Notes under the pieces: generated by a model
The model's input: only the letters and a program-made list of their open reading frames with translations
What the model was told of the DNA's origin: nothing
Database searches by the model: none
In this document: positions 363 through 40,105 of the stretch, one piece after another
Layout: each line of letters starts with the position of its first letter
Position numbering within the stretch: the stretch's first letter is position 1
DNA from: Siphonodentalium dalli
Lineage: Eukaryota; Mollusca; Scaphopoda; Gadilida; Siphonodentaliidae
DNA length: 64,000 bases
Direction of reading: 5' to 3'
Assembly (NCBI GenBank): GCA_032622095.1
Contig: CP136066.1
Coordinates: 53,906,609 to 53,970,608, forward strand
Made by a program: the position numbers and the translations under genes

Positions 363-3300
363 GTAAATAAATCTATCTTCAGATTTAAAGATGGTCTATC
401 TCCTCCGGGATACAATTACAACAGCAGCATATATTTATAAACCCCCAAATTTAAGACTACAAATAACTTTTTCTGTGCATAAAACACTGACAAACTGAAG
501 ATTGTGTATATTATTTGTCTATAACAATTTCCTGAGGTTGCTGAGTAACAAGATAGAGTTGTCCCGCTCGATATACTCCTAACGTTTCCACGAGCCTTGC
601 AGAAACATTCAGAGTGCAGGATATTTGTGGTAACAAGCATGATACATTAAATTAGCAGAGTGTGGTTCACTTCAAAAAGCGCACATAATAGAAAAACTGC
701 CCAAAATGACCCTAATATTTAAGTTCGATGATTATTGGGATGAGTATATACGTGCCATATGTTTCTCAAACAGCACGCACAATCATGGGTGTAAATATAT
801 CACAGTAATGTCCTTAACAATTTTCTTTATATCCTTTATGCAGAGTCAATGAGACTGAGAGGAAGAATCCTGAGACGCCATCGACACAGACAAGTATCAT
901 ACTCATGCAACGAGCGGAATCAACCATCGACCATATTATGATTGTAAGATCTAATAGTGCTACCATTAAATAACATACGAGTATCATACTCCTGCAACGA
1001 GCAGAATCAACCATCGACCATATCATGATTGTAAGAACTAATACTGCTACCATTATAAATAACAGGCACATGGTGTGAAGGGTATGGGAGGGGTGCTGTA
1101 AGGGGGGTGGTCATGCAGTGAGCAGAATCAACAGACGACCATATCTCCTTCAAATATATCTTGGACACTGAAACTAATGGTTATATATTCTTGCTTGCAA
1201 GAAATCTAGAAGTCGTAAAAACAAAATCGGTATGCAATACCTCGAGTACGCGCACTTGTCAAATGCCAATTAATGGCGATATATTCTTTGGACCAATCAT
1301 GGGAGTCCTTTCACTATAACAGCGATGGAAAGACAAGACCTCATTCATTTTAAATTCTTCTAGACGCAAGATAAGTCGCATTTTTTATCTGTTCATTTCT
1401 CATGAACGTTTCTCTTTGTGCTATTGCGAACGACAACCCGCAGTTGCCTAATTTCGTGCACTACGCACGTGTTTTTCCAATTTTCGCAATTTAGTTTTAC
1501 AATTGTTCAACAATCTTTTATTCTACAATACTGTCTTATTAATGACAGTAGTCCGTGGGTGGATATTTTCATTGACAAATATTTCAATTTTGTTTTATTT
1601 ACGAGAATCACTTCGAACAAATATCGTTTTTGTTTGCATAAAACAATACTCAATAAAACAAACCGATGCTCTTTCGAGTCTTTCGGGTTCTCGTCGGGAT
1701 TTTTTAACACTGCACCGGATGCAATATCGTGTTGTCGTCTCCACTTAGCTCCAGTTTGGAGTTTGGTACCTGACAAAATCCTATCCAAATGTATTAGAAG
1801 TAATAATTTACAATATTTTACAATAATTTTCCTCACGGATGCTAGATAAAATAGCCACAGTGTGGCTTGCCTCTTCTCTCTACATTGAACATACGTTTCA
1901 ATGCTTTATGATGAAAACTTTGTGATGTTTTTCCCTCCGACTGGTAGGGGTGCCACGATTGATCGTATAATCGATGAAACGTTGATACAGCCGATATTCA
2001 ATTACCACTTTCGGCGGCGATTACTCTGAGTTCTTTATTTCGGATGTCGAAAAGTACCGGACATATTTGGATACCCTGTTTTACAGTTTAACATCCAACG
2101 GACATGTTAACGATCGTTGATCGTACAAAGATATTTGTAACGCATTGTGCTCATTACTAATTACCGGCTTTCCTTCCCACGAGACAGTAACGATTGCTCT
2201 CGCACCCGTATGCACTCGCAATTTTCTATTCACGGGTGTTCATCATTTGCACTTGTCCACCTGGTCACAATCAATATTAAAATATGTGAAGATATATTTA
2301 GCACATTTCCCATCTCTGTTAATTTATGGGCATGTGAAAGTGTCAGTGGACTTTGGTATATCACACATTGACCTTTGATTTGAGATAACCCCAACTTACA
2401 ATTATATTACCGGTGCAATTACACCCTTCTAATCAACGAAACTGTAATTTTTGTCATGGGAAGGACTGTCTCGGTGGTTTCTGATACAAATTATGCACAT
2501 GTGAATATTTTGCACTACTTCCTCTGTCCTGCTATTAGATACGCTTCATCGATTCTAATCTCGTATTGACTATTGATTATCAAGTTCAATGATCGTGGCA
2601 CCTCTGCTGACGTGGCACCTTCTCTTGCATCCTCCATTAACTTGAAGTCTCCGCTGGAGTTGGTTGGTGGACATGCCTCCTCCCTCAGGGTCGCGGCGTC
2701 CATAGCCCCCGCAGAGAAGGGCAGCGATGGTGGTCCAAGTGCAGCTGCCCTTGGTCCTGCCTCCGGTTCCGCCGGGTTCGCACCATCGCTGCACCAGCCG
2801 GCCACTTGCTACGGCTACCACATCAGTGGTCCGTTTAGCTCGCAAGCCCGGTGCCCTCGGCACATTGTCTGCCTACGCAGTTCAATGTGTCAACTGCCAC
2901 TGCTTCCACTCCAGGGGATTTGACCGCACGGGTTCTGACCTGTCCTCCATTCGTCAACGTCTTTTCCGGCATCCGTCCCTCCCGGTTTTGGGGTGGGTAT
3001 GTATCCCTATTATTCACCTGTGTTCTTTCCTCCACCAGTGTGGCCTTGCTTTGTCCAGTTTCTGGCCTCTTTTGAGCTCCTCGGCCATAACTTAGACTTA
3101 GTTTCCTTTCCGAGGCTCCGAAATTTCTTGCCTCATCACACCAGGTGACCTGGTCGGGATACTTGCCCCTTTCCCCCCATCTCCGGGACGGACGGTGCTG
3201 TTCAGAGACGAGGACTTGCTGTCGCAACATCCCCTGGATTTGGCAGCGTTTGATGCGTGTCCGAGTTCGCCATGCCCATCCGAGACTGCCTTCCATGAGG

Positions 3301-6300
3301 GTCATTTCGGATGGGTCAGTCCTTCGGTCTTAGGATAACAATTGCGCACAATTTTGCATGCATTACCAGCACGATACTAACAGCACAGAAAAAGGAAGAA
3401 CAAACATGGCCTTTCTCTTGCTTCCTCCATTTACATGGAGCCTCCGCTGGAGTCGGGTGCGGGACATGCCTCCTCCTTATTGGTCGCGGCCTCCTGAGCC
3501 ATCCCTGTCTTCCACAACCGAAGGACTGGATGGGGCTCACATATCAAGTACAAAATCCAACGTGTGACGATTTTTCCTCTGCCAACTCGATACAGCCTGC
3601 GCAGCAGGCTCAGGGTCTGTTCGTGGTCATGCCTCTATTTGTAGTCGCGGCTTCCACAACCTTCGCAGAGACGGTCAACAATGGATTTTCCTCTGCCAAC
3701 TCGGTACAGCCTGCGCTGCAGGCTCGGAGTCTGTTGGTGGTCATGCCTCCTCTATTTGTAGTCGCGGCTTCCACAACCTTCGCAGAGACAGGAAACAATG
3801 AATTTTCCTCTGTCCACTCGGTACAGCCTGCGCTGCAGGCTCGGAATCTGTTGGTGGTCATGCCTCCTCTATTTGTAGTCGCAGCTTCCACAACCTTCAG
3901 AGTCGGGCAACAATGGATTTTCCTCTGTCAACTCGGTACAGCCTGCGCTGCAGGCTCGGAGTCTGTTGGTGGTCATGCCTCCTCTATTTGTGGTGGGGGG
4001 GTGGTGGGGGGGGGGGGGTAGGGGGTGTCATAACCGTGTTTTCCCCTCGGTGCACCTTTTGCATGTATTGTGGGCCAGTCAGCATCCTCTGGATGTCGTG
4101 CTAGTGCTGCTTCATCCTCTAAGGAGGGGGGGGGGGGGTGGGGTAGGTTCCTTTATCCTATTAGGTACATGAATGAATGAGTTATCCCCCTTGCCTATGA
4201 CCAATGGTTATCCTGGACACCTTCACCCTGTGATCATTACTAGTAGGACACATGAAGTACGTGGTGTTTCCTTTTAGGAGGCTCAGTTGTTTTTGAGTTT
4301 ATCTGAACTATTACATATGGGACACAATGATCTATTTTTTGGCACATGTCTACCAAGAAATCTTTTTGGTACAGGATGCAGGTCTTTTCTGCTTCAGCAG
4401 GTGGGTTTCATGGACATAGTCGGATTATCTGCCTCGTGGCCTCCTCCTCTTCAAGAATTCTAATTATAACCATTAGTTTCAGTGTCCAAGATATATTTGA
4501 AGGAGATATAATATTTTTTTACCCAAAATATGTATCTCCTATAATAAATATCTTGGACACTGAACATAGAGGGCCCTCCCAGTTGGGATCAACATTCCCG
4601 CCCCGCACACTCGGTCAAACGCATCAAACACACAGGAGGAAGAAATTAAAATGAATGAGGTCTTGTCTTTCCATCGCTGTTATAGTGAAAGGACTCCCAT
4701 GATTGGTCCAAAGAATATATCGCCATTATTTGGCATTTGACAAGTGCGCGTACTCGAGGTATTGCGTCCCGATTTTGTTTTTACGACTTCTAGATTTCTT
4801 GCAAGCAAGAATATATAACCATTAGTTTCAGTGTCCAAGATATTTATTATAGGAGATACATATTTTGGGTAAAAAAATATTATATCATGTGTATGATTAA
4901 ACTAATGGAATGTGACAAGGGAGTTGTATGGGGGGTGAGTGGGGGAGTGAAGCAATTCTGGAACAGGACAGTTTTCTCTGTGCTCAAAATGCTTTACTGT
5001 ATAAACATACTGGTTTTATAGCATTCTATAGTGCAGAATGCATGAATATTTTGTATTTATTTGTAAGGCATGCATACTAAATTCCAAAATCCATTATATT
5101 ATCAAGCTACCATTAATACTGCGTATGTTCAAGAGTGTGCCAAGATGTGCCCTTGTGTGCACAGGTTTGCCCTTGCAACAAAGTCAAAACTGCAGATGGA
5201 CTTATATCACGGAATAAATGTAATACCCGTGGTTATATCTATGGCGCCCTAAATATAGAAACTTTGTAAATTTAAACTTTCCGCTACAGACTTTAGACGC
5301 TGAGTGTTCTAAGAATCAGGAACCAATGGCTGGCGTGTTGAATCACATGATGGCAGGCAAAGGATTCGAATCCATACTGGCAGCTGCTGCAGCGACTGGG
5401 AAACTGCAGGACTTCAGCGTCAAGCTAATCAAGTATGTCTTCACTTCTTTGTCAAGTTTTTCTTGTTTTATAGGTTAACCAATACAGGTAAGTGGGTGCC
5501 TGACAAGGTGACACATCTGCCGGGTCAACGAAAATCACACCTAGTCCTCCGGAATGACAATAACAAGTCAGAAGGAGCACTGGCTGACAGACCATATGGC
5601 CTTTCCATTTGTCAACATAAGTATAGTGAAAGAAATAATGGCTTACAACCTACCCATCATCAGTGTTCGCGCTGGACAGAAAAAAAGTTTAGCCAAAAGT
5701 TTAGCCAAATGAAAATTTTATTAGCCAAATGAAAAAAACTTTAGCCAAATGTTTTTTGGCCAATTTAAAAAAAACTTTGGCCAACTTAAATCATCGTTTT
5801 CTGGTCGGTTCACAATTAATGACTAAAACGTAAAATCTAACAGACACAGGTAAAATACACAATAATTTAAATAATGTTGATGAACTAGAAGTTTTTTTAT
5901 ATATATCATTTATTAAAAATTTATTAATCTTTATGTGAAAGAGTGATTTGTGGGGGGGGGGGGGGGGGGGTAACCCGGGATTGTCCTTCTTAATGTCATT
6001 ATTGTTTTGTTTTATATCAATATCCGTTTTTAAATCATTAAATATTTATCCTTGCGAAAATATCTAAGTGACATCTGGAAACTCTAATAACTTAATATTG
6101 TTACGCCATTATCAAATTACAATCTGTCATAAAAGCATGCATATTATTTTGACTGTATCGGTATTGACGACAAATAGCCACAAAATATCTGTCGTCACAT
6201 TTGGCTGATTAAGCTATTGTCTTACACTTGGTGCTCATAAACATCGACCGTCATAAATACAATGTCATCATAAACATGCATTGTGCAGGCGCGCCGTGAG

Positions 6301-9300
6301 TGACCAGACAGACAATGGGCTGAATGGGGGATTAGGGGATTAAATGTGCAAATTAATAATGACCTTTTGCTGCTTCGTGCAGAGTGACGTAATCTTTCTC
6401 CAGATTAAAACAGCCTGTTACGAACAAATTATATACCGGCGTCAATGCACTTTACAAAACATTGCTTTCTTCACATTGTCATAATTCAACCATGGTCGGT
6501 TTAATGTCCATGCGTCTTTGAATGTCCGTCTTGTGAAAACTAAAGATGATTGCAAATCACTGTGTGATCGCTTGGTTGATAGAGTTGTTGATCGGGTTTC
6601 CCTTTGTACGATATTTCATAAGTACGAAAATAATGAAATACTTTCGTCACCTAACTTCGTCTTGAATGTCGATCTATTGAGCGCTTTTATTAATTAACTT
6701 TCTGGCTCCATGCTTTCAGTCTCCATTTTGGTTCAAAAAATGTTTAGCCAAAAGTTTAGCCAAATGAAATTTTTATTAGCCAAATTCGAAAAAGATTAGC
6801 CATTGGCTAATTTGGCTACCGACAGCGCGAACACTGCCCATCATATAATTTCCCCACATAATGAAGGTGGTACATAATTGTATGGGGTGGCAGGAGGGCG
6901 TCTACAGATGGTGTCAGCACAATAACTTGAACAAATATCAACTGATTTTGTTTATATTTGTTATATGGGATTTGCTCAACACTATCTTGATCAAGTTCGA
7001 AAACTTGCCAGATATGCCTATTGTGGACTAAGTTACGGCCGTTAATTTCCTCTCTGTCTGTGTGCTATATAAATAAAGTGGCTTGCTTACCTTTAGGTGA
7101 TGCACGCTATTGTAGAATAAAGATAAACTCAAACATCGAGACATTCGGGAAAAATAATCCCAAATAAGATAATACCACCCAACTTTTGAAACTGACTGAT
7201 TTAAACTCACATTCACCGATTGTTTTGTTACATGCCAGTTTTATCTTTCTTCTAGATTCAATGAGTTTTCCAAAAATAGTGCTTCGGAGAATGAGAGAAG
7301 TTCACAGACACGAGCCCTGCTGTTTGACATATCATTTCTTATGTTGTGTCGCATCGCCCAGTTCTACGGCACTGAGGTTTGTAATATTATTTCTTATGTT
7401 GTGTCGCATCGCCCAGTTTTACGGCACTCAGGTTTGTTCAGCTTTGATCACTCCTGTGATTTCTAGCTCATGTTTATTATTTATGTGCTATCCATTGCAG
7501 GGCATAGTGGGGCATTATCAACAATTTTCCATTATTTAGCAGTCATTTTGAGCTAAAGTGACAATTTTGGTTCCATTGAGTTGAAATATTCTTAAGAAAT
7601 GGCATGCCTCACTTACATTGCACAGTTCTGCTCATTTCTTGTTGAAATATGACTAGAATCCCAATGGTGTTTTTCGGTGAAATTTATAACGCATTCTGCA
7701 TAATCAAAATTTTGAGTGATCAGAAGGGGCTGGGACCCACATAATGGCATATTTCCTTGCTCCAGTGATCAGTTAACATGAACATTTTTTTTAAAAGTCG
7801 AAATTCTCAACCAGTTCCAAACAGGAAACTATTTTAGAAGATATTATTTTCCACTTCCAGTGGCCATTTTGGTGGCCATCTTGGACGAGGAGTTCCAAGT
7901 TTGCCCTAAAAAGGTAGCATTGTGTCTTTCCTTCACAATAATATATATACATTAGTATACATTTGTCAAGATTTGCTCTTAATAATTTGCATCAAACTGA
8001 CTTTTGTGCTCGTCTTAAAAATGGCCGCCATGTTGGATTCCATCTTGTCTTGCGTGTACTTGGCCACCTTTGTTTTTGTGTTAACATTACTTAAAAGTTG
8101 AGGGACATAATAAGGAAGAAAATGAGTTGGGTGAAGTTAAGTCCTGTTTTTTTGATACATCACCTCTTGAAATCTAATCACAATGACATCATTTATATTT
8201 GATATCAGTTTCCCCCATCCCGTCATAATCTGAAAAAATGGTAACCGAGTAAGGCTAAACTTTGACCCAGTAGGTGCAATAGCACCCAAAATATTGGCTG
8301 TTAACATCGTTTTTCCTTACCAGTACATATTACGATACATGAAAATACCAAAGAAGTTTAGTAGTGGGCGGGGTGCATGAGGGGTCCTACCAGCTCATGG
8401 ACTATATGGGAGACTTACATACCGGTACATCAGGCCTCAGCCTAGGGGTCCAGAACAGGGAGACTTGAAGTCTCCCTCCAGGAAATTTAGGGAGACTTCA
8501 GGGAGAAGTGGGGAGACTACCAAAAATTGACAATTTTCAAATATCGCTTTATTTTATAACATCTGACATTAAATTTTTAAAAAGATAAAATAAGAAATAA
8601 AACTAAAAAAATTTGACTTTATCTGAAATTAGCTTACTGGTAATTAATTGTTATTATACATTTAAAAATTTTGGAAATGTTTTGTGTAGCTATCATTTAT
8701 TATCAAGTTACAGTAGAATTAAATTTTTTAACTAAATGATAGTAGTATTATTTCCTAGACTGCAGCTTGGAAGATACGTTTGTAAATTGTACAGTCTGAA
8801 TCATGCATGTAACTTTGTAAGTTTAATTTGGTCACGGCTGTAATGTGGGTGTCCGCTAAAATAAACAATAAGGACTAAGTAACAAAGGAGTTGCAAAAGC
8901 TTTTATTAATTAATGGCCTCCCTTAATTAATGCCAGCATCACTGGTATAATCCGATTAAAGCAATAAACTTGACATTATTTTATTTACGGAAGCGGTCTC
9001 TTAAAAAAGTCCGACGCGGTCTCTTCAAAAAGTCCGACGCATTACCGAAACGAACTTCCGAAGCGCCTGGTACATACACTGATAATGTCGTAATTGTTTT
9101 ATATCTGAAAAGCGGGACGGCGGTCTTTTAAGTTAATTAAAACATTTATTTGTGACACTCACGATGGTCAGTAACAACACAGATGCGAACATCTCATCGT
9201 GTTTTCAGCGTGTCAAAACATTCGTGATTAATTACATTCATTACCGCAAAGGGAACACAGGCGACTGAATAACAACACAAAACAATAGGTCATATTTTAT

Positions 9301-33300: not shown

Positions 33301-36300
33301 TCCTTCTCTGACTTGCCGATATATAGTGTTCCTCTAATTGGCGTAATTAGCACTCGGGGCGATAGTCACACCAAACAGGGCGCGGGTTGGGGCTACCCAT
33401 TGAACCCATTAGTCACATTGGTGTGCTCCCTGGACTATCGAACGGGATGTCAATCTGCTTCTGCGGGTCGACCGTTGGCTGTTGACGTGCCCCGGACGGC
33501 TGTGACCACTGAGCTCTACTAAAACACTCGACACACGCCGTCCATCGCTACAAGTTGTCATCTCGGGGTCAGCGCGGCTGGGGGATACACCCTCAGTGGT
33601 CCCTGACCATGCTCTCCGGTGCCTTATGATCATAGTGTGTGGAAATTTGGGCTAAAATTACTAGTCGAATGGCCATTTTACTTTGTCCCAATTCAAATTA
33701 GGAGATTTTTTTTTCTTCAAATTATTACATTTACGCAATTATTTGGCACCTGAAAGTTTATCCTCCATGCCTTCTGCCCCAGCTGGGCTTGGAATGGGAT
33801 CACAGTTCACAGGCTTGTTTCCTCCTTATTATAAGTCACCACTTCCGGGGGCTTGGCAGACAGATTACTGGCCACATTCTGGCCAACAGCTGCCAGTAAC
33901 TTCGGGTTTGATTTTAAATGAAAACAAAAGATCTTATTCCCTGACGCCATTATAGCAGGAAGCTTGCTTGGGAACTGGTACCTACTAACCTCCCATCGCC
34001 AGTTCGGTCGGTTGGATATCGGGATCGGTCCTGCTGCTGCTCCACCCCGAGATGTACATGCTCTGGACATTCCTCCGGGGTCCCCAATGACCAGACCTCA
34101 CATGCAATTAGAAATGACGCTTGTCGTGGTGTATTGTGCTGTTAACACCCCATCGACGGATGGAGATCAGGATCAGATCGAGCAGTCGCTCCAGCACGAG
34201 GTGAAAGGGCTTTCGACATTCCTTTCGGTCACCTTTACATGCGCTTACGAGGGAGCTCAGTTAGTTGTTCAGTGTTCTCTGATGCAGCCAAGCGCAGGAA
34301 GAAAATTAATGTCGAATTTTTATTAGCAAATAACCTCAGATTGACATGATTTGATAGCATTGTTCTACAATCATTTACAATTTAACAGAACATCAGAGTG
34401 CTTTCCCTTGTTTCGAGGGTTCCAAGGAAGAGATAGAAACCTTTACGACCAGGACACTGTCACTTGTCGATGTATAGAGTTCCCTTCATTGGCGTAATTA
34501 GCACTCAGGATGATAGTCCCACCAAACAGGTCGCGGGTTGGGGCTACCCATCGAACCCATTGGCCGCATTTGGTGGGCTTTCTGGACTATCGACAGGGAC
34601 TCCAAGTCGGATACTATGGGACGACTGTTGGCATACCCTGGGACAGTCAAATGAGGAAATAGGATCCAAGTTGCATGGCTTTTGTTAGCATTTGGGTAAC
34701 AACTTGCCCTGTGATGCCGGTCAATTTGTACCCTGCCTAACGTCGTCAGAGCTGGGTGGTTATGCCATCGGACTGCACACTTGGCGACCTGGGTTCGACC
34801 ATCCTGAGAGGTATTCAACCATTTTACTGTTCTCGGGTTGGGATGTGTTCAACTTCTTACTTTATAAGTTGTTGCTTCTTTCCATGTTCCATCCAGCTCT
34901 TTTGTGGTCACGGGCTTTGCTGGAGAATGTCTATAGTCATTCATATCACTAGATTAGTATATGACTCTCGCCCTTTCATTTTCCTGACTTTTAAGACGTG
35001 CTCTGGACTGGTTCGGGTGCTCGATAGGGTAAATATTTACATCTCGATTTGGGACGCAAGAATCAGAGATAAACAAGCATACATGCTTTATCTCCGACCT
35101 CGCTGTGTTTCCGTAATAGATACGAATGACATATATTTTGTCTTCAGGTTGCTTTCAGTGCTAACTCAACATGGATTTCACTTTTGTTGTCCAGTCATAC
35201 ATAGATGAGTCCATTATCCATGGTTCGACATATGCTCAATTTCAGAACACTGTTGACATGAGGTCTAGTTCAGCACCCCACTCGGGCTTAATGGGCAACA
35301 CGGCGTATTAGCAGCGTGGAAAAGAAGAACGAAATGGCGTCTGTGATATCGGCCTTTGCGTCTAATACGTCATTCTTCTTATGGGCTCGGTTGTCGGTAC
35401 ATAATGGTTTTGTTTTCCCTGATAGTGCTTGATTCGCCTAGTGCTCATTTAACATACTAAGCCAGGTCCTTTGCTGACCTCAGCGATTGCCAATGCAGGA
35501 TAATGTTGCACCTGTGGGGCAGCATATGAATCATGTTGGGCACACTTCATAAAGCCGGATGAAAATTCTTGCCAGATGCTTCTCCTCGTGCGAGATTCAT
35601 TAGCATTGGGTGTCGGATGCCAGATCATATGATCCGCCCTCTCGATTCGCACTTCGGGCGATGGTTGTCTCCGGAACATGGTCCCATTGAAAGGGCACCC
35701 CATCCTTACCAGAAGGGATATCTTGCGCCATCGACTCGTCGGGGACCAGTCAGCAGAGCTCAAACAGTTGGGGCGCGGTGGCCCTTGGTCTGCTTTTCAT
35801 TACATACCTGCCGTCGGTTTCTGCTGGTTTTGGGCTTGTGCCACAATCCTGATGCATCGTTAGTCCAATTTTTGTTTTTGTGGATTTCCACCTTAACGAC
35901 ATTGGAATTTCGGTTCCTGGCTGCCTTTCTGTCATGGATTCAGTAGCCTGTGATTGGTCAGTTGGGTGTAACTGTGTTGGTGGGCATTTCCACATTTGGG
36001 AACGACATGGCTTATTGCATCTTAGTCGGTCATATCTCGAACTCCAGGCTTCAAACTAAGTTTTCTGCTGTGAAACTCCAATTCTGAGCCATGTTCTTCA
36101 TACGGCCTGAGCCTTGCAACGTATGTCTGTGTAATACCCATTCGCTTCCTGGTCAGACTATTGGTCAATGATACCTCCTCCTTATCGACAATGGCATGTC
36201 TCCAAGTAGTTGGTGTCGGGCCCTTTCTTGGGAGCTTGCAGCTGGTTTTTCATCGGGCTCTCATCGTGTACTGGGACACGGCCCAACCCACTCAAGATTT

Positions 36301-36494
36301 GGTTCGGGGGTTGGTTCTATTGTTTTTAAGGGGGGTCTTCGTTATTACTTGCGGCTTTTGCTGCCTGGGTTAGCCTGTTAGGTGCGGTATTAGTATTTAG
36401 CCATCCCTGGGTTTATAATACCCGGCTGGGGATTTCTTGTCAACGGGTATTTTTCTATTTCCATTTCCTTAGAACATGGATGCTTCTCCCCTTT

Positions 36495-36545
<51 letters not shown>

Positions 36546-39500
36546 GTTACCCGTACCTTTCCCGGCAAGTACTCGGCTGATACATTATTAGCCCTAAGTT
36601 CCGATGCGAATGTCGTATCCATCTCCATGTCTTCTGAAGCTATTTATTTACTTGCAGGGGTCTTAAACTCTTAAGTGGCCACTTTTTGTTCGTTTGAGCT
36701 TGCTGACAGGTATTAGTTTTAGGATGGAATATTACATTGGCTTATGGTCCTATTGTGCATGTGTGTATATATATATATATGTATATACATATATATCTAT
36801 ATGTCTGTGCATACATATGTATATATTGTAGGTTATCAGGTCAATCCAGTTCTTTGATTCAGATGCATAGCGGTGTTTTTGTTTCCTCGTGGCCTCCACT
36901 TGTTAGAAAATTCTATGCTTTACCATATAGTTCAGTGGGCAAGATACCTTTGACGGAGATACAATATTTTCCTAAATAAGTAAAATATATATCTCCTAGA
37001 AGTATCTTGCCCACTGAACGCTGAGCTCCCTCCCAGGGTTTTGCACCCACCCCGCTCACGAGGAATGTCCTACTGGGGATAAAAAATATGGCGATTACTT
37101 CACTACGTGTCAGAAATCACGTGATTACACGGGTCATGAACATGACAGAAGATATGTACCATAGAATTTCGTACGTTTTTTTCAACTCGGAGAGTTAACC
37201 CCTCCTACTTGGGATAATATACCATATAGTTCAGTGGGCAAGATACTTCTAGGAGATATATATTTTACTTATTTAGGAAAATATTGTTTTTAGCCCATTC
37301 CAATGCACAAATTAGATTCATTGGTGTACCATGTTATGAATTATGGTGTTTTACATCACTTTTAGCTGAAGCTCATATTAAAATCCGACAAATAACAGAA
37401 TGTAAACACTGATATGTCGTGTGTTCGTCGACCATTGCATGTGACCCGTAATTTCATGAATCCCCCTGTGAGTTCCCTGTGCGCACGGCAAGGTAATCAC
37501 ATGCGTTCACATTGAGTGTACAATTCAGGTTGCCCTGATACAATTCAAGTTGAGGGGAACTAAAATCTGCACATGCGTGTAGTTTTTACAAATTACCAAC
37601 TCCAATTTGTTACACATGCGTACTGTTAACATCCTGGTACAGTAATGCGAGTTGCAGAATCAGTTTGCCATGCACGAACTGCACGCAGTCATGTGATATG
37701 TTAGCTCCTCCTGCTTCGGCCATTTAACCACGTTTTGTCAACATGTTTTCCGACTGGATTTTTGGATTAAATTATTACGGAATTATACACACGTTCTGGT
37801 AGGTGTCAGAGCTAATATATATTGCAATATTGTTTACATTAATGACTGTGTTAGTTGATTCTTAAAATTAAGTGTATTTAAAAAAATTAGATAGTCGTCT
37901 AAGCTGATAGAAGACCCGCGCTACGACCTGTATGGCGTAAGCCATAATTACCAGGTCGTTCTATGACAATCATCAGTCGCGGACAATTTAGGTTAGAGGT
38001 TGCATTAAAATTACATTTATAGGTCCTGTATACGGAACGGATCATTAACATGTTTTCGGTAAAACGCGTTGTATTGGTGGGGGGATTTGATATTTAGTGC
38101 ACAGTAGTGGTAATTGAATGTCTTTGCCGCGGATAATACATCTACTTGTTGTTTTCCCCTTAATTATATATTTTTTGTGAAGATAATGGGCGCCGGACAA
38201 ACTGACGGACGATAATAAGGCGGCGCCGGTCATCGGTGTATTTGCCTCGGTCAATGACCATGTCCGACCTCTTATATCCAGGCTTGGCGATAACTCAATC
38301 ACTTTCTATCCGATTGGAACCAAATTTTGAATATGAGTTTTTCAGTCCAATATATTGATTGAGTTAGAATATGAGTTTGAACCAATTTTTTTTTATGAGT
38401 TATGGCACTTTTAAAAATAAACATATTTTTAAAATTATTTTTGATTTTTTTTTCATTTAGTTCCTTACTCAATTTAACAAAAAAAAAAAAAAAACAACAA
38501 AAAATAATTTCTTCCATGAAATTACTGAGACTTATTTAAACATCTTGGGAACCACTGTGTTGATAAATCTGACATATGGTGTGAAATGGCCTAGGATGGT
38601 AGGTATTCCATTATTCCAAATGTGACTGACCTGTCAAAACGACCAGATCTAGTGTACTCCATAACATTCCCCCTCCTCCATACCCTTCCACTCCTCTTGT
38701 CCTCTCCCAAATTATAGTTACCGGTATCTCTCATGCATTGACTATAATAAGCATATTAATGTAACTTGAGTTAATTACCTGACCACATGTTATGTCAGAT
38801 TTGATCTTATCAGACATATTTTAATAAACAAAGTTCCACAGAACAATGCCCTCTTTATGTTTAAGGGTGTTTTGTTAACCACCAACTATATTATTTTATA
38901 TCCCACATGGCAATTTGCAACATCATGTTCGATGTTATATATTGTTATATTAACCCTTTTCAGTACACTTTATAATTCAACATCAAGACTCTAGATTATG
39001 ATTCCGATCATAGCAATTTACTATCGCAAAGGGATGGGTCTGCTGATCGTGATCGGCTTCTCATTCTTGTTTATCTAAACCCCCATCCAATTTAGCACAG
39101 ACATGCGAGTATTAACCCTTTGAGTGCCAGGTCCGATTTTTGTATCGACCCATATACCCTGTGCCAATGCATTCTCTTATATATGCGAGTCGACCATAGG
39201 TCGCCTCGCATATATAAGAGAATGCATTGGCCTAACAATTTTTTTTTTTTTTTTTTTTTTTTTATACAATTTTTTACAAATTAAAAAATTTATTCTTATA
39301 TTCTTTAACAGACTTATTTTGTAGGTTTAGGGCCGATGAGATCGGCCCCTGGCACTCAAAGGGTTAATAACATGCATGTACATGTACTTTGGCACAACAT
39401 CTTTTCATACCCCCCACTCTCAAAGATAATGGGCGTATACTGGATTGACCTCGTCCGTCTGACATGTCATTTATCCATTCGTTTTTCCATCCTCCATCTG

Positions 39501-40028
39501 TCCATCCATCTAGGTAGATATCTCAAGCACCTGTTGTCGGATCTGAATGAAATTTGGTATGGATGTTCCCTACCAAATGTTCACAATGGAGAGTTCAATT
39601 GTTTTTTCTGAATTTTCCATTCTAGAGTTATTAATATGTTTATTTGGAAGTGTTGGTTTTTTGTCCTTCCGAGCAGATAGATATCTCCACATCAGTTGTA
39701 CAATCTCAATGAAATGTGGTATGGTATTCACTAGTATGATGGCAATCAATTGAGTGTTCAATTGTTTTGTTCATGTTTCCCATTGTAGAGTTATTTATCT
39801 TTATTTATATTAAAATACCCCACCGTGGTGAATCTCAGAACCGCCGGTGCAGCCTCTTTTAACTTTATCTTCCAATTATATTTACAGATACCGCAGATGT
39901 TAAGAAGCATACCCGGTGTGTTTAGTCGGCAGCAGATTCTACACATATGTGATCTTTTTACGAGTCAAGGATGTAAAATCGCAGCAAGGACTATATGTCA
40001 GATATCAAACAGTGACATAGGAAGCTGA
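276..40028 (+). CDS. MED24: Mediator complex subunit 24 (C-terminal ~620 residues, 14 exons; 5' part outside window)
   Basis: This is a gene-level entry; the exons are listed separately. MED24 is a subunit of the Mediator tail module and links DNA-bound activators to RNA polymerase II in the nucleus. Fourteen exons with AG acceptors and GT donors join in frame (1866 coding nt after the first split codon, 622 codons including the stop). The product aligns collinearly with vertebrate MED24 as I know it: the CDC motif, RAE, a run of alanines then TGK, ALLFDISFLMLC, WFC, DP.G..LAKL, DPLN, and the C-terminal AA pattern. The first exon seen starts in mid-protein, so about one third of the gene is upstream. 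The last intron is 17.4 kb and holds another gene and many transposons. The final residues after ICQI extend a little past the vertebrate end. Three exons have tandem-duplicated 3' ends (see findings). What is seen: exons, phases and motifs. The name rests on family knowledge. Confidence 0.95.
844..943 (+). CDS. MED24: MED24 exon (linker to LMQRAEST)
   Basis: The acceptor is TATGCAG ending at 843 and the donor is GTAAGA at 944. One leading base completes the AG of the previous exon to give AGA (R), and the exon ends in phase 0. It encodes a polar linker followed by IILMQRAESTIDHIMI, which matches LILRAEPTVTNILK of vertebrate MED24. Its 3' part, from GTATCATACTC through the donor, is repeated immediately downstream at 981-1067, and a third fragment is split by a DIRS-like element at 1141. 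Confidence 0.88.
894..1140 (+). repeat. Tandem duplication of MED24 exon 3' end with its splice donor
   Basis: Unit 1 (894-980) holds the last 50 bases of the exon, the donor and 37 bases of intron. Unit 2 (981-1067) repeats this at 87-bp spacing with few changes, including CAACGAGCAGAATCAACC and a GTAAG donor. A third partial unit (about 1112-1140) with GAGCAGAATCAACA stops where the DIRS-like element begins. No acceptor-like tract precedes unit 2, so it is probably intronic debris rather than an extra exon. Confidence 0.85.
3572..3992. repeat. 114-117-bp tandem repeat inside DIRS-like element 1
   Basis: There are four units, starting near 3572, 3686, 3803 and 3918. Each contains CCTCTGCCAACTCG, CAGCCTGCGCTGCAGGCTC, GGTGGTCATGCCTCC and TTCCACAACCTTC. 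The region is GC-rich against an AT-rich background and stays open on both strands, so the open frames here are not evidence of a gene. Confidence 0.85.
4463..4561. repeat. Internal complementary region of DIRS-like element 1
   Basis: TTTCAGTGTCCAAGATATAT then TTGAAGGAGATAT mirrors the left end at 1141-1190. The adjoining ACCCAAAATATGTATCTCC block mirrors the right end at 4835-4885. The two meet at ATAT, the same bases that border both ends of the element. In DIRS elements this region templates a circular intermediate. Confidence 0.82.
5290..5432 (+). CDS. MED24: MED24 exon (TLDAEC...KLIK)
   Basis: The acceptor is CCGCTACAG at 5281-5289 and the donor is GTATGT at 5433. It starts in phase 0 and leaves two bases. 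It reads AGVLNHMMAGKGFESILAAA and then AATGKLQDF, nearly matching LLGVLGHMLSGKSLDLLLAAAAATGK of vertebrate MED24. This is one of the best-conserved blocks in the window. Confidence 0.95.
5661..6836. mobile_element. hAT-like non-autonomous element, 1.18 kb, with perfect 8-bp TSD
   Basis: The left end CAGTGTTCGCGCTG at 5661 and the right end CAGCGCGAACACTG ending at 6836 are inverted copies. CCCATCAT flanks both sides (5653-5660 and 6837-6844), a perfect 8-bp target duplication as made by hAT transposases. Both subterminal regions carry repeated TTTAGCCAAA-type motifs. A 19-base G run lies at 5952-5970. No transposase is seen. Confidence 0.88.
7256..7376 (+). CDS. MED24: MED24 exon (KFNEF...YGTE)
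   Basis: The acceptor is TTCTAG ending at 7255. The first base completes AA+A (K), and the exon reads FNEFSKNSASENERSSQTRA then LLFDISFLMLCRIAQFYGTE, matching LNEF...RALLFDISFLMLCHVAQTYGSE in vertebrates. The donor is GTTTGT at 7377, a weak site. A second copy of the exon end and donor lies 55 bp downstream; using that donor would add 55 nt and shift the frame, so the first is preferred. Confidence 0.93.
7334..7437 (+). repeat. 55-bp tandem duplication of MED24 exon 3' end and donor
   Basis: The stretch ATTTCTTATGTTGTGTCGCA through TACGGCACTGAGGTTTGT occurs at 7334-7382 and again at 7389-7437 with two substitutions. The copy carries a potential alternative GTTTGT donor at 7432. Confidence 0.9.
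7560..8430. other. Intronic sequence, no gene seen
   Basis: This is AT-rich MED24 intron. Phrases such as GTGGCCATCTTGGA and AAATGGCCGCCATGTTGGAT resemble units of the satellite at 50-52.8 kb, so part of it is probably a diverged single copy of that repeat. No exon or open frame of interest was found. Confidence 0.5.
8431..9536. mobile_element. hAT-like non-autonomous element, 1.1 kb, with perfect 8-bp TSD
   Basis: The ends CAGGCCTCA (8431) and TGAGGCCTG (ending 9536) are inverted. CGGTACAT is duplicated on both sides (8423-8430 and 9537-9544). The left subterminal part repeats GGGAGACTT-type words and the right repeats GCGAC-type words. A short internal duplication of GCGGTCTCTT..AAAAAGTCCGACGC lies near 8993-9043. 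No transposase is recognised. Confidence 0.87.
9590..9845. other. Diverged dispersed repeat
   Basis: A fragment of the TTAA-D terminus (AAGCTCCAGTCATGGAAGGG) is followed by text ending in GATCTGAATGAAATTTTGTATGGA. The latter recurs at 39541-39562 as GATCTGAATGAAATTTGGTA, so this is a dispersed repeat rather than a gene. Confidence 0.5.
9920..10318. mobile_element. TTAA-B MITE (piggyBac-like ends), full length
   Basis: It starts TTAACCCTTTACCCAACA and ends TGTTGGGTAAAGGGTTAA, with TTAA on both sides. Inside are two copies of a long hairpin (9951-10018 and 10097-10168) built on GCCAATGCATTCTCTTATAT. The TTAA target and CCCTTT end point to a piggyBac-type transposase acting in trans. It ends 37 bp before the acceptor of a MED24 exon. 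Confidence 0.85.
10356..10522 (+). CDS. MED24: MED24 exon (IINTPES...SEIPT)
   Basis: The acceptor is TTTCCCAG ending at 10355 and the donor is GTGAGA at 10523. It starts in phase 0 and leaves two bases (TG). It reads SFFVEWATKCLPEDGKAKNL and on to LRHLYTNSEIPT, matching PFFETWMQTCMPEEGK...LLNNSSE of vertebrate MED24. Confidence 0.93.
10569..10996. mobile_element. GAATGAGG-family MITE, full length
   Basis: Both ends are hairpins whose arms read GAATGAGG(T)CCCCAGAGGG and TGAATTTAGTGATGCTA with their complements. The middle ~190 bp is shared with copies at 16.3, 40.4 and 57.7 kb (ATCTTCTGGGAAGT, CAGAAGATAAAATGCATAAT, TCTCCCATAGCAG). It starts 47 bp after a MED24 exon. Confidence 0.83.
11000..12690. 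other. MED24 intron, no gene seen
   Basis: This is AT-rich unique-looking intron. Sentences such as TTTATGAAACTTGGTACATAG and GTTATGGTTGTCTGATAGC resemble dispersed non-coding repeats. No splice-supported exon was found besides the MED24 exon at its end. Confidence 0.4.
12691..12790 (+). CDS. MED24: MED24 exon (TTSWEDICG...VEEVK)
   Basis: The acceptor is TTTGATAG ending at 12690 and the donor is GTAAGG at 12791. One base completes TG+C, and the exon ends in phase 0. It reads WEDICGTLPFAVQEVIYAWE then CGVISVEEVK, aligning without gaps to WHEACLSISAAILEILNAWENGV of vertebrate MED24. Confidence 0.93.
13322..13455. mobile_element. GAATGAGG-family MITE, right-end hairpin
   Basis: A single hairpin unit: GCAGAATGAGGTCCCCAGAG, loop, complement, then AAATGACAGACACACTATTT and CAAGGCTTG. 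The left half of the element is missing or lies elsewhere. Confidence 0.8.
13569..14084. mobile_element. GAATGAGG-family MITE (subtype 2), interrupted by a TA-flanked MITE
   Basis: The left hairpin is at 13577-13665, followed by the subtype-2 middle also seen at 18.4 and 19.4 kb (GCCAATATGGTGATATTGAC, AAGAAGTTTCTAAAGAAAC). The right hairpin is cut off at about 14080, where a different tandem array begins. A 160-bp MITE is inserted at 13874-14033. Confidence 0.8.
13874..14033. mobile_element. Short MITE with CTCTCAGGTGCC ends and TA duplication
   Basis: The ends CTCTCAGGTGCCTAATAAT and ATTATTAGGCACCTGAGAG are inverted, with TA on both sides (13872-13873 and 14034-14035). Sister copies of the host element (for example AATAAAGAGACTTTCC at 18.6 kb) show the uninterrupted site. 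Confidence 0.85.
14097..14650. repeat. 171-bp tandem repeat
   Basis: GAGTTACGGCC recurs at about 14098, 14269 and 14440, with a diverged GAATTACCC at 14610. Units share TTAGAATTTGACC, CCAAAGTTGG and TTTCCCAGCTAAA. About three and a half units lie in the MED24 intron. Confidence 0.85.
14905..15180 (+). mobile_element. Possible LINE 3' end fragment
   Basis: A 41-bp direct duplication (CTGTTTGTCCTTTTAGTATT..., starting near 14928 and 14969) precedes a run ending in GAAATAAAGTATTCTGATTC and TGAT. Terminal ATTCTGATTCTGAT repeats are typical of some non-LTR retrotransposon tails. No reverse transcriptase is present, so this is tentative. Confidence 0.35.
15685..15871. repeat. 187-bp near-perfect hairpin just upstream of a MED24 exon
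   Basis: The left arm (TAGAACC, CATGAGTGTCTGGATTTTGA, TAAATTATCGCACTCGAATT, GTTGGCGGA) and the right arm are complementary almost base for base, closing on GCGGGACTGCGTCCCGC. It ends 21 bp before the acceptor of the exon at 15893, so it covers the region where a branch point would lie. It is probably a foldback MITE. Confidence 0.9.
15893..16068 (+). CDS. MED24: MED24 exon (NFVQNIKSS...YYSD)
   Basis: The acceptor is TTTTATTGCAG ending at 15892 and the donor is GTATGA at 16069. It reads NIKSSMCCLPTAVSAWLVSY and on to NTAQYYSD, matching NIKGKVCSLAVCAVAWLVAH...ENTLQFYNE of vertebrate MED24. It leaves two bases (AG). A TACAGT foldback element starts six bases after the exon end. Confidence 0.93.
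16075..16175. mobile_element. TACAGT foldback MITE, left arm only
   Basis: TACAGTAATGCTCTAAATAA and CGACTCCTTAACCACAGC are followed by degraded hairpin sequence (GAGCTTTCCGATGAATGGCA). The right arm is missing. Confidence 0.75.
16188..16288. mobile_element. GAATGAGG-family hairpin, solo
   Basis: One hairpin with arms AGGTCCCCAGAGGATGACTT and complement ending CATTCTGCAAATG. No companion hairpin on its left. Confidence 0.7.
16323..16733. mobile_element. GAATGAGG-family MITE, full length
   Basis: The left end AATAGTGTGTCTGTCATTTG and the right end CAAATGACAGACACTATT are inverted. Each end carries its own hairpin, with the family middle section between. It ends 32 bp before the acceptor of the MED24 exon at 16766. 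Confidence 0.85.
16766..16991 (+). CDS. MED24: MED24 exon (SSIMITIIRKM...RHAVQ)
   Basis: The acceptor is ACATTCAG ending at 16765 and the donor is GTGAGT at 16992. One leading base gives AG+G (R), and the exon ends in phase 0. It contains YLPPKTQPNE, QGWMDVNSLRTCEQLLNICG and SEWFCRHA, matching LLPPKRP, KGWVDSRSIHIFDTLLHMGG and VYWFCNN of vertebrate MED24. Confidence 0.95.
17326..17560 (+). CDS. MED24: MED24 exon (AMLENMRSE...TCPK)
   Basis: The acceptor is ATTTCAG ending at 17325 and the donor is GTATGT at 17561. It starts in phase 0 and leaves one base. It includes LTLNLLHKVVPSFLLSNSKQ and DPRGYTLAKLCV, matching VTLVLLGHILPGLLTDSSKW and DPPGTALAKLAV in vertebrates. Confidence 0.95.
17581..17829. 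mobile_element. TACAGT foldback MITE, full length
   Basis: An inverted pair of ~105-bp arms (TACAGTAATGCTCTAAGTAA ... to CATTACTGTA) with a short duplicated loop around GAGAGCTTTCCGATGAATGG. It begins 20 bp after a MED24 splice donor. TA ends suggest a Tc1/mariner-type origin. Confidence 0.88.
17872..18277. mobile_element. hAT-like short element related to the one at 5661
   Basis: The ends CAGTGTTTGCGCTG and CAGCGCGAATACTG match the 5661-6836 element, as do subterminal words TTGGCTAATAAAAATTTCAT. The flanks ACAACAGG (17864-17871) and ACAACAAG (18278-18285) agree at 7 of 8 bases, a slightly decayed 8-bp duplication. An AAAGCATGAAGCCGG triplication lies near 17990-18038. Confidence 0.82.
18282..18722. 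mobile_element. GAATGAGG-family MITE (subtype 2)
   Basis: The left hairpin is at 18313-18410, the subtype-2 middle (AAACTAAACTAAAAAGGAAA) follows, and a right hairpin with a shortened arm ends at about 18700. Its left end abuts the 8-bp flank of the hAT-like element at 17872. Confidence 0.8.
18834..19165. other. Possible transposon with GGGAGAAG-rich ends
   Basis: CAGGGACCAGACTAG is followed by AATTGGGAGAAGGCACTTCT. The other side has TAGGGAGAAGTGGGACATTT. ACATGCTA occurs just outside both sides (near 18825 and 19166), a possible 8-bp duplication, but the ends are poor inverted repeats. Confidence 0.35.
19255..19663. mobile_element. GAATGAGG-family MITE (subtype 2), decayed right end
   Basis: The left hairpin is at 19270-19362 (AGAGGGTGAATTTAGTGACA), the middle matches the copy at 18.4 kb, and the right hairpin is reduced to one arm (GGTGAATTTAGTGATGCTAG). 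Confidence 0.75.
19758..19816 (+). CDS. MED24: MED24 exon (small basic exon)
   Basis: The acceptor is TTTTTCAG ending at 19757 and the donor is GTGAAT at 19817. It reads DSGGSTVTGRKRTRKEMDFE after the split codon, matching the QASTRQKKRHREDIED charged region of vertebrate MED24. The exon ends in phase 0. Confidence 0.88.
19981..20016 (+). repeat. Possible SINE 5' fragment
   Basis: GGCCCCGGTGGCTCGGTTAG followed by TAAGATGC resembles the first third of a tRNA with an A box. No B box follows, so it is at best a fragment. Confidence 0.3.
20593..20686 (+). CDS. MED24: MED24 exon (EMEDTDNRPSK...FNL)
   Basis: The acceptor is CTGTTACAG ending at 20592 and the donor is GTGAGT at 20687. It reads EMEDTDNRPSKIRKTQLNEP and then QLTLSSEGFNL, in the position of the low-conservation DDVQPSKLMRLLSSNED segment of vertebrates. 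Frame and phase (0 in, 1 out) support it more than similarity does. Confidence 0.82.
20700..21226. other. MED24 intron, no gene seen
   Basis: Nothing was recognised. Open frames here lack splice context or family similarity. Confidence 0.4.
21227..21716. mobile_element. TTAA-E MITE with a nested TTAA-D MITE
   Basis: The outer element starts TTAACCCTTTCTATACTAAA and ends TTTAGTATAGAAAGGATTAA. Inside it (21453-21684) is a second element running from CTTAAACCTTCCATGACTGG to CATGAAAGGGTTAA, which carries remnants of the GCCAATGCATTCTC hairpin. Both are bounded by TTAA. Confidence 0.75.
21763..21834 (+). CDS. MED24: MED24 exon (DIMADIKDE...DPLNKAI)
   Basis: The acceptor is AATTTCAG ending at 21762 and the donor is GTTAGT at 21835. 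With the split G it reads DIMADIKDESMTRYDSKDPL then NKAI, matching VNMRDPLNRVL of vertebrate MED24. Confidence 0.9.
22299..22444 (+). CDS. MED24: MED24 exon (VSLFDLMNE...FIPPTM)
   Basis: The acceptor is TGCTTTCAG ending at 22298 and the donor is GTACGT at 22445. It reads GFLISFIEEAVKCGRPHSKY then ILQFIPPTM, matching TQFVQWFMEECVDCLEQGGR...VLQFMPFTT. It ends in phase 0 and must jump 17.4 kb to the terminal exon. Confidence 0.93.
22445..24680. other. Start of the 17.4-kb last MED24 intron; diverged repeats
   Basis: At 22457-22500 there is a TTAA-D end (TTCCATGACTGGAGCTTCC). At 22510-22860 there are diverged single units of the satellite seen at 50-52.8 kb (CATGGTTGCCAGTGGCCATC, GGATTTTACTCTTT). 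Text at 23868-24120 recurs at 63690-63900 (AAGTTATGAAGTAGC, GAAGTCACATGA). No exon was found. Confidence 0.5.
24691..26472. mobile_element. hAT-like non-autonomous element, 1.8 kb, with perfect 8-bp TSD
   Basis: The left end TAGGGATGCAACGATTCAAT and the right end ATTGCAGCCCTA are inverted. GTATCAGA is duplicated on both sides (24683-24690 and 26473-26480). Both ends are rich in TATCGTATC-type words, a known habit of some hAT ends. A CGCTACAGCGGGCTGCCGTG segment is tandemly duplicated at about 26122-26195. No transposase is seen. Confidence 0.88.
26639..26847 (-). CDS. Lectin gene exon 3 (second half of C-type lectin domain, stop)
   Basis: The acceptor on the - strand is CATTCCAG before 26847; G+GT gives Gly. 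It reads GELFIDGHRTHSNDTLYTWR, YIDWFSDEPSGAPQNW and PKPHICELY, then TAA at 26641-26639. Confidence 0.85.
26639..30118 (-). CDS. Secreted PAN/apple plus C-type lectin domain protein (3 exons, nested in MED24 intron)
   Basis: This is a gene-level entry. Three exons on the - strand (30118-29836, 28747-28550, 26847-26639) join in frame to 229 residues. A hydrophobic stretch (about residues 15-32, after Met12) looks like a signal peptide, so the true start may be Met12 rather than Met1 or Met6. Residues ~45-84 carry four cysteines (62, 66, 72, 82) in a PAN/apple-like pattern, ICSAECARTNGCKSFTYN. Residues 96-229 form a C-type lectin domain with Cys96, Cys113, Cys130 and Cys226, WRGSVMSYIDWFSDEPSG and a final HICELY. 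The usual second disulphide and the EPN/WND calcium-site motifs are missing, so classical sugar binding is doubtful. The role is probably extracellular (recognition or defence), by inference. The gene lies wholly inside the last MED24 intron on the opposite strand. Confidence 0.85.
27023..28271. mobile_element. Possible hAT-like element with CAGGG ends in lectin intron 2
   Basis: The left end CAGGGTTCTCACTGCCAGTT and the right end GTCCAGCGTCAGCCCTG are partly inverted. Flanks AATATCAG and ATTATTAG agree at 6 of 8 bases. Subterminal TTGGCAAA words resemble the TTGGCCAA words of the 5661 and 17872 elements. The ends are decayed. Confidence 0.5.
27259..27727. mobile_element. MITE-L copy (CCACTTAATTTT ends)
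   Basis: CCACTTAATTTTCAAAC at the left is inverted as ACTCAAAAATTAAGTGG at the right. The interior CATTCTATATTATATACC, AGCTCCAAAACATTGTATTA and CATTCTGGGAGG match the element at 54.9-57.0 kb. It is nested in the CAGGG element. Confidence 0.65.
28550..28747 (-). CDS. Lectin gene exon 2 (first half of C-type lectin domain)
   Basis: The acceptor on the - strand is TCATTTGCAG before 28747 and the donor is GTTCGT after 28550. It reads CAVSSGYRLYTLAGRQHCLK and then LPASDAVLACQREGAHVIEV, a standard start of a C-type lectin domain. Phase 2 in, 1 out. Confidence 0.85.
28906..29136. mobile_element. Decayed TTAA-E MITE
   Basis: TTTACTAAAATGGATTCTCC at the left and TGAGTATTCAGTAAAGAACG at the right match the TTAA-E copies at 21.2 and 44.4 kb. 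Terminal TTAA is poorly kept. Confidence 0.5.
29167..29381. mobile_element. TACAGT foldback MITE, full length
   Basis: Two complementary ~100-bp arms from TACAGTAATGCTCTAAATAA to GCATTACTGTA, closing on AAAGCTCTATGAGAGCTTTC. It lies in lectin intron 1. Confidence 0.88.
29412..29875 (-). repeat. 64-bp tandem array of exon-1 3' ends carrying splice donors (7 units)
   Basis: On the - strand each unit holds the exon end (GGGGACGGTACGTTCGTGAT) followed by GGTGAGTATC and GATGCATCAGCTGGA. Donor-like sites occur on the + strand at about 29442, 29510, 29574, 29638, 29702, 29766 and 29830, mostly 64 bp apart. The unit at 29830 is the one that fits the reading frame and family; the others lie downstream in the intron. 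Confidence 0.88.
29836..30118 (-). CDS. Lectin gene exon 1 (signal peptide and PAN segment)
   Basis: Encodes residues 1-94, from MKEYNMEPKLTMANLEIFLM to FGGDGAFVI. The donor is GTGAGT read on the - strand at 29835. The last base A joins AA of exon 2 to make Lys95. The exon end is the first unit of a 64-bp tandem array. Confidence 0.82.
30148..30315. mobile_element. TACAGT foldback MITE, short loop, upstream of lectin start
   Basis: Arms from TACAGTAATGCCCTAAGTAA to GGGCATTACTGTA with a short GTGTTTTTATT loop. It begins 30 bp upstream of the first Met codon of the lectin gene, so it lies in its 5' UTR or promoter. Confidence 0.88.
30316..31876. other. Intergenic/intronic DNA upstream of lectin gene
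   Basis: The lectin promoter should lie in the first part, but no convincing TATA box or other element was identified. The rest is AT-rich MED24 intron with no recognised exon. Confidence 0.4.
32863..34600. repeat. Three spaced ~100-120-bp repeats inside DIRS-like element 2
   Basis: TTGGCGTAATTAGCACTC, GATAGTC.CACCA.ACAGG, CGCGGGTTGGGGCTACCCAT and GAACCCAT recur at about 32868, 33332 and 34486 with 5-10 % differences. Two copies also share CTGGACTATCGA downstream. Confidence 0.85.
36496..36544 (+). repeat. 49-base poly-G tract
   Basis: An uninterrupted G run inside DIRS-like element 2. Its exact length is unlikely to be reliable in any assembly. Shorter pure G runs on the same strand are at 5952-5970, 53153-53170 and 57430-57447. 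Confidence 0.9.
36922..37020. repeat. Internal complementary region of DIRS-like element 2
   Basis: ACCATATAGTTCAGTGGGCA then GATACCTTTGACGGAGATA mirrors the left end at 31877-31918. AATATTTTCCTAAATAAGTA and ATCTCCTAGAAGTATCTTGC mirror the right end at 37235-37287. Confidence 0.82.
37288..39111. other. Last part of MED24 intron, no gene seen
   Basis: AT-rich. A small hairpin (ACGACCTGTATGGCG / CCATAATTACCAGGTCGT) lies at about 37921-37960. TTAGGCCTCATG-like mobile fragments are absent. An open frame on the - strand at 38045-38302 has no recognised similarity and no splice support. Confidence 0.4.
39112..39367. mobile_element. TTAA-C MITE
   Basis: It starts TTAACCCTTTGAGTGCCAGG and ends CCTGGCACTCAAAGGGTTAA. 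Inside is one GCCAATGCATTCTC hairpin (39164-39232) and a long T run. Confidence 0.87.
39888..40028 (+). CDS. MED24: MED24 terminal exon (IPQML...DIGS stop)
   Basis: The acceptor is TATTTACAG ending at 39887. It starts in phase 0, reads IPQMLRSIPGVFSRQQILHI then CDLFTSQGCKIAARTICQIS, and stops at TGA 40026-40028. It aligns without gaps to VSELVKVSAMSSPKVVLAIT and DLSLPLGRQVAAKAIAAL at the vertebrate C-terminus. The last 41 bases including the stop are tandemly repeated downstream. Confidence 0.93.
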   Translation: MPQMLRSIPGVFSRQQILHICDLFTSQGCKIAARTICQISNSDIGS

Positions 40029-40105
40029 AATTCATAAAACTGTGAAGGACTATATGTCAGATATCCAACAGTGACATAGGAAGCTGAAATTCATAAAACT
40101 GTGAA
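39988..40105 (+). repeat. 59-bp tandem duplication over the MED24 stop codon
   Basis: GGACTATATGTCAGATATCA to CATAAAACTGTGAA occurs at 39988-40046 and 40047-40105 with one main substitution. The second copy lies in the 3' UTR. Confidence 0.92.

Follow-up and report, generated by a model that had tools for sequence, protein, structure and literature searches.

Short tandem duplications at three exon 3' ends and at a stop codon in the MED24 region of the scaphopod Siphonodentalium dalli

A window of 64,000 nucleotides from Siphonodentalium dalli (assembly GCA_032622095.1, contig CP136066.1, positions 53,906,609 to 53,970,608 of the forward strand; all coordinates below are those of the window) carries four short tandem duplications that touch the ends of coding sequence. 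Two lie at exon 3' ends of MED24 (events A and B), one spans the MED24 stop codon (event C), and one lies at the 3' end of the first coding exon of a lectin-like gene nested antisense in MED24 (event D). We regard ordinary short tandem duplication filtered by selection as the likely explanation of these events, and taken singly the examples found here are ordinary small duplications. Tandem repeats at exon-intron boundaries are already a known kind, of which the present events are further members.

Survivorship, one of two explanations offered in a preliminary description of the window, is supported by three observations. The encoded protein is unchanged by all four events, the original exon being left intact with its spare copies trailing behind it, as had been described; none of the arrays compared (period of at least 30) lies inside a coding exon or across an acceptor; and the spare copy of event B has drifted.

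Four arrays beside intact coding ends

Tandem Repeats Finder (TRF) recovered arrays at all four sites of the preliminary description, namely 886–1065, 7322–7437, 29419–29871 and 39986–40105, and these arrays are real. Their reading as four exon 3' ends holds for A, B and D; the fourth array spans a stop codon inside a terminal exon. Likewise, the statement that each unit runs from the exon into the intron or untranslated region (UTR) stands for A, C and D and is not clearly borne out for B, where the unit corresponds to exon sequence up to its last base. The exon-intron boundary is thus overlapped by the tandem unit in A, B and D, in B only within a junction ambiguity of five bases, and not in C. 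The identity of MED24 is certain, with a match to the Pfam profile Med24_N at 479.6 bits over residues 1–590 of a 599-residue draft, and matches to solved MED24 chains at E 1e-58 over residues 1–407 of an earlier, incomplete draft of 448 residues. Thirteen MED24 exons were placed on the plus strand, each preceded by AG and each but the last followed by GT.

Event A concerns the MED24 exon at 844–943 (plus strand), whose working donor ATT|GTAAGA at 943 was assigned from the frame into the exon starting at 5290 and a gap-free junction against solved MED24. Its 87-bp unit is present in two copies at 886–1065, and the second donor, at 1030, shares an identical 9-mer with the first (ATTGTAAGA). In the exon part 50 of 55 bases are identical, and the intron part shows 28 identities, two mismatches and two gap columns over 30/32 bases. 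A third copy at about 1111–1145, truncated and without a donor, is 29/35 identical and is bordered, as judged by eye, by inverted-repeat element sequence; it was found with an 89-base query at a score of 23, and the 99% null level of 17 came from a different query (1000–1064). This third copy polarises three of the five exon-part differences, placing two in the coding copy, both synonymous, and one in the spare. A continuation of the third copy past the element near 4881 was considered and rejected, since its local score of 11 coincided with the 95% level obtained from 300 random stretches. By eye, the sequence at about 1146–1400 next to the truncated copy recurs reverse-complemented at 4600–4880, some 3.5 kb further on, an arrangement resembling the long inverted repeats at the termini of a DNA transposon, and related hairpin sequence is found near 4484–4560.

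Event B affects the MED24 exon at 7256–7376 (plus strand), with the working donor GAG|GTTTGT at 7376, as assigned from the phase with the exon starting at 10356 and from the alignment with solved MED24. The array at 7322–7437 holds two copies of a 55-bp unit, identical at 50/55 positions, and a spare donor CAG|GTTTGT at 7431. Its junction falls inside a five-base homology, GTTTG, which occurs both in the exon (CTGTTTGAC) and at the start of the original intron. The unit accordingly equals the final 55 bases of the exon, and what is now the intron side of the copy-1 donor derives from coding sequence. Among the events only B has AG|GT at its junction, with the GT coming from this homology shared by exon and intron. 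Four of the five differences between the copies alter D, S and E; since those residues are also found in solved MED24, the spare is most likely where the changes occurred. The remaining difference, a synonymous one, is unpolarised. Taken together, the differences in A and B are consistent with copy 1 being under purifying selection while the spares drift, although the counts are small.

The array of event C (39986–40105, plus strand) consists of two copies of a 59-bp unit lying across the stop codon 40026–40028, with the spare in the 3' UTR and no splice site involved. As an exon end this event was rejected, its unit spanning the stop codon inside the terminal exon. The two copies are identical at 58 of 59 bases, so that two alleles or reads could have been joined end to end. 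An assembly artefact is nevertheless extremely improbable for the set, given that the copies of A and B differ at about 9% of their exon-part bases and the units of D by up to 22%, levels above those to be expected from a stitched read or allele.

Event D lies in a PAN/C-type-lectin-like gene at 26639–30103 (minus strand), which sits antisense within the last, 17-kb MED24 intron (22445–39887) and has three exons sharing one frame. The earlier name of nested lectin gene is kept here in a more modest form: the PAN_1 profile passes its cut-off (22.9 vs 21.4 bits), and Lectin_C stays below its curated one (16.4 vs 22.6 bits), for which reason we speak of a lectin-like gene only. The first coding exon (29836–30103, minus strand), supported by PAN_1 and by its frame, ends in the donor TCA|GTGAGT at 29836. 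A 64-bp unit comprising exon end and the start of intron 1 is present there in seven copies (D0–D6, 29419–29871, minus strand). D0 is the exon end itself; D1 to D4 read TCG|GTGAGT, D5 reads GTGACT, and in D6 the GT has been lost. Counting the exon copy, six of the seven units thus keep it. Identities of 98% between D1 and D3 and 95% between D2 and D4, compared with 92% between D1 and D2, may be a sign that the array grew by dimers, in a 128-bp pattern. Relative to the spares, D0 is changed at 8–11 of 34 positions in the exon part and at 0–4 of 30 in the intron part (Fisher 0.005–0.35 in six comparisons). This excess could reflect homogenisation of the array halted at the exon by selection, a reading on which we do not rely since D6 behaves alike, its exon part being likewise the more changed in all five comparisons with the other spares, and since a private-state test gave 0.055.

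Which copy works can be judged from the reading frames. In A and B the copy-1 donor joins the exons in the MED24 frame (...RAESTIDHIMI-TLDAECSK... and ...RIAQFYGTE-IINTPES..., respectively), both matching solved MED24, and the next exon joins copy 1 without a gap in that comparison. Use of the spare donor would lead to a stop within the added stretch in A, and to a frameshift and a stop in B. With the D0 donor the lectin-like frame is open to its end, and with each of the five GT-bearing spare donors the frame shifts or meets a stop earlier. None of the spare donors tested (one in A, one in B, five in D) thus yields an intact frame, and copy 1 is probably the coding copy in A, B and D because only copy-1 donors give correct frames. 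No acceptor was evident by eye in units A and B, which gives little ground for reading their spare copies as additional exons.

Position of the duplications relative to splice donors

Whether the duplications gather at exon 3' ends beyond chance was examined with a scan comparing the last 40 exon bases at each donor with the next 400 bases, and the first 40 exon bases at each acceptor with the 400 before. A local tandem copy scoring at least 16 was found at three of 14 donors (33, 35 and 17.5) and at none of the 14 acceptors scanned, one further acceptor being too close to the window edge (Fisher one-sided P = 0.11). This cut-off was chosen after the scores had been seen, and at 18 the lectin-like donor (17.5) drops out, leaving 2/14. 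Random sites reached a score of at least 16 in 11.8% of 3000 cases, with 6.0% in 1–41000 and 23% in 41000–64000. Rotation of the 14 donors gave an expectation of 0.85 and P = 0.035 over 450–41000, and an expectation of 1.69 and P = 0.25 over 450–63500; for the 12 MED24 donors alone, of which two were hit, the corresponding P values were 0.16 and 0.42.

Random placement of the TRF loci gave probabilities for at least three donors of 0.022 (11 loci), 0.10 (15 loci), 0.012 (12 low-copy loci) and 0.0006 (7 loci), the last set being a subset picked post hoc by removing element- and satellite-like arrays. For at least four arrays touching coding exons the respective values were 0.026, 0.12, 0.020 and 0.0014, and for at least three donors with no acceptor, again post hoc, 0.001–0.002. 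When the detectability of donor-spanning pairs was doubled, in the sets other than that of 7 loci, Poisson probabilities of 0.10, 0.17 and 0.44 were obtained for base means of 0.56, 0.70 and 1.22. The clustering had moreover been chosen for study because it was conspicuous. Non-random clustering at donors is thus suggestive. As duplications the arrays exceed chance; as clustering at exon ends they do so only nominally, with P from 0.0006 (the subset picked post hoc) to 0.25.

A further comparison concerns the distribution over coding sequence. For units of 55–87 bp touching coding sequence, 26–35% would be expected to fall on a donor or stop, 31–50% internally and 24–33% on an acceptor; three donors, one stop and neither internal nor acceptor positions were observed. 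Under the explanation by selection, a duplication inside a coding exon would alter or shift the protein and be lost, and one across a donor or stop would leave the message intact provided that copy 1 holds a complete working signal. The cell would then splice or stop at copy 1, and the remainder would follow as neutral sequence within the intron or UTR. Units A and D each carry about 30 intron bases, by which the full donor is kept in copy 1, and in B the GTTTG common to exon and intron would have rebuilt the copy-1 donor, turning coding sequence into a new intron start; this is as the rule of a complete donor requires.

A second property of splicing may contribute. Of two tandem donors of equal strength the first is predominantly used, according to PMC6783452, which describes acceptors as having no such order effect. 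This preference would also explain why the survivors sit at donors, as it implies that donor-spanning duplications can be harmless in a way that acceptor-spanning ones cannot.

As to their origin, slippage or microhomology-mediated repair would be plausible sources, and the process would be the same as for other duplications in the window, with units of 55–87 bp and junction homologies of two to five bases in the three readable cases (by eye, about four in A, with an indel, five in B and two in C). By eye as well, non-exonic duplications show homologies of three bases (13015), four (14926) and four (47973), the first two being in a MED24 intron and the third downstream of MED24; at two others, 60450 and 63055, no clear junction homology was visible. 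The preliminary description had alternatively proposed a local mutational mechanism tied to exon ends, such as repair at transcription- or R-loop-linked breaks. Breaks linked to donor-bound U1 would be a further example, and under any of these, tandem duplications would form more often at donors. The nominal donor enrichment (P = 0.0006–0.035 in some sets) and the four arrays touching coding exons (P down to 0.0014) would agree with it. However, P is 0.10 with 15 loci and 0.25 with rotation over 450–63500, and 0.10–0.44 once the longer detectability of constrained pairs is allowed for; just two of 12 MED24 donors are involved, and the stop-codon event has no donor at all. Breaks linked to R-loops or transcription are left unsupported, since unit sizes overlap with those of the three non-exonic duplications and junction homologies are similar, and we judge a mechanism tied to exon ends to be very unlikely.

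Spare donors and donor strength

Several observations weigh against duplications filtered by selection as a sufficient and harmless account. Three donor-spanning duplications were seen where random placement predicts 0.23–1.22, a number that selection alone would not raise. In event A the intron part is not clearly more diverged than the exon part. The score of the spare donor exceeds that of the authentic one in B (5.7 vs 4.8) and in four of six lectin-like copies (8.2 vs 5.1), scores that derive from an approximate frequency table and from few sites. At unequal strength the stronger site is said in PMC6783452 to dominate, and together with the higher spare scores this casts doubt on harmless passivity in D and leaves it uncertain in B. 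Finally, in human hearing loss, the ATP11A variant c.3322_3327+2dup, an 8-bp duplication of exon end and donor GT, is described in PMC9035003 as spliced at the second donor with loss of the frame; its copy 1 has just two intron bases. It is the kind of case that selection would remove, and it shows a limit of the first-donor rule.

The earlier statement that downstream copies do no harm is consequently too simple, as every tested spare donor would lead to a frameshift or premature stop and spares outscore authentic donors in B and in most of the lectin-like copies. Judging from the sequence, unproductive splicing may cost the lectin-like gene some of its transcripts, or the gene may be helped by the extra sites; these two possibilities weigh most heavily against harmless passivity. 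In event A spare and authentic donors score equally; among the lectin-like spares, one is without GT and another has the lower score.

Spare donors with a function of their own, either as extra U1-binding sites that aid a weak donor or as a decoy array that sets the expression level of the lectin-like gene, would be in keeping with the low scores of the duplicated donors, which rank first (B), third (D) and fifth (A) weakest of 14, a set of ranks equalled or undercut by 7/364. The four intact lectin-like spare donors that outscore the authentic one, and the premature stops to which the five GT-bearing spares lead, point in the same direction. Against this, the scores come from approximate frequencies and few sites, the rank test was made after the data had been seen, and consensus matches of five (A), six (B) and five (D) out of nine are unremarkable in a range of 5–7 over all donors, one other donor having five and four others six; nor do the lectin-like spare lacking GT and the one scoring lower speak for maintained function. 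We consider functional spares unlikely.

Should filtering by selection act as outlined above, exon 3' ends might behave as one-way ratchets: duplications with a complete donor would be tolerated and their mirror image at acceptors would not, survivors would accumulate behind donors genome-wide, and the trailing donors, as extra U1 sites, would let the authentic donor weaken. This extension is speculative and, in our estimation, rather unlikely. If donor-spanning duplications do outlive acceptor-spanning ones, a splice-site rule measured in reporters would show up in genome structure as an enduring asymmetry. Such an asymmetry can be checked in any annotated genome, the prediction being that the unit has to carry a full donor into copy 1 or reconstitute one there. 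In literature on tandem duplication and splice sites, titles and abstracts among the matches listed mentioned no asymmetry between donors and acceptors; the asymmetry itself was not a search term, which makes this weak ground for its absence.

Comparable duplications and further features of the window

Tandem units lying over exon-intron boundaries, as found here, are reported in PMC2812944 for human genes in segmental duplications, in which TRF gave 162 alignments with boundary repeats and, after inspection, 27 intron modifications. That work concerns recent human paralogues with transcript evidence and a varying number of repeats; our data come from one window and from sequence, and exon structure is apparently unchanged. 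The closest parallel to the seven-unit array of event D is the minisatellite of IFI6 (6-16), which provides multiple splice donors (Turri 1995, cited in PMC4526556). There, too, donors are supplied by repeats that trail an exon end; two of these trailing units are reportedly used and give isoforms, whereas here every spare tested leads to a frameshift or stop.

The origin of introns by tandem duplication has been reviewed (PMC3443670) and studied in Drosophila (PMC2891723), and in potato a tandem duplication across an intron-exon boundary is reported in which the 5' end of the new intron was recruited from the exon (PMC4974935). The potato and Drosophila cases resemble ours in that a splice site is spanned or flanked by a short tandem duplication whose spares become intron. 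Event B might accordingly be seen as a step in intron gain or sliding through tandem duplication (the Rogers model), since the end of an exon is copied there at an AG|GT border and the new intron start was taken from coding sequence, much as in potato. In potato, however, a new intron arises from a unit lying over the acceptor side, while the units here lie over or abut a donor and only lengthen an existing one. No extra intron is needed to account for the gap-free junction with the next MED24 exon in the comparison with solved MED24, and the intron grew at its 5' end only; we therefore hold intron gain or sliding to be improbable.

Of the remaining MED24 exons (plus strand), that at 276–362, upstream of event A, was placed by its splice sites, its frame and its match to solved MED24. 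The exon at 5290–5432 is without duplication, that at 10356–10522 fixes the phase for event B, and the coding part of the terminal exon (39888–40028, including the stop codon) lies within the Med24_N match. In the computations the end of the terminal coding exon was set to 40032 or 40033, which left donor and acceptor counts unaffected, the true end being 40028. The exons at 17326–17560 and 20593–20686 join out of frame, and an exon between 17560 and 20593 was therefore probably missed by the model; its donor is not among the 14 counted. In the lectin-like gene (minus strand), the second exon (28550–28747) sets the phase for event D and the last (26639–26847) contains the stop.

No Rfam family matched at its gathering threshold. 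Copies of a short palindromic element (ACAGTAATGC...AACCACAGCAGAATTATGGGTAA) are present at about 17585–17830, 29175–29385, 30150–30320 and 63040–63240, some of them internally tandem-duplicated. Another palindromic element (CAGAATGAGGTCCCCAGAGGGTGAATTTAGTGATGCTA...), whose pattern had no exact match in viral_contigs, has copies at about 138–230, 40450–40541 and 40742–40834, among others. At 50270–52717 lies an array whose 164-bp unit is repeated 13.8 times from 50501 onwards and which also shows a longer, 483-bp period, and a satellite-like array at 55750–56987 comprises 25.9 copies of a 48-bp unit with 97% matches and is open in several frames on both strands.

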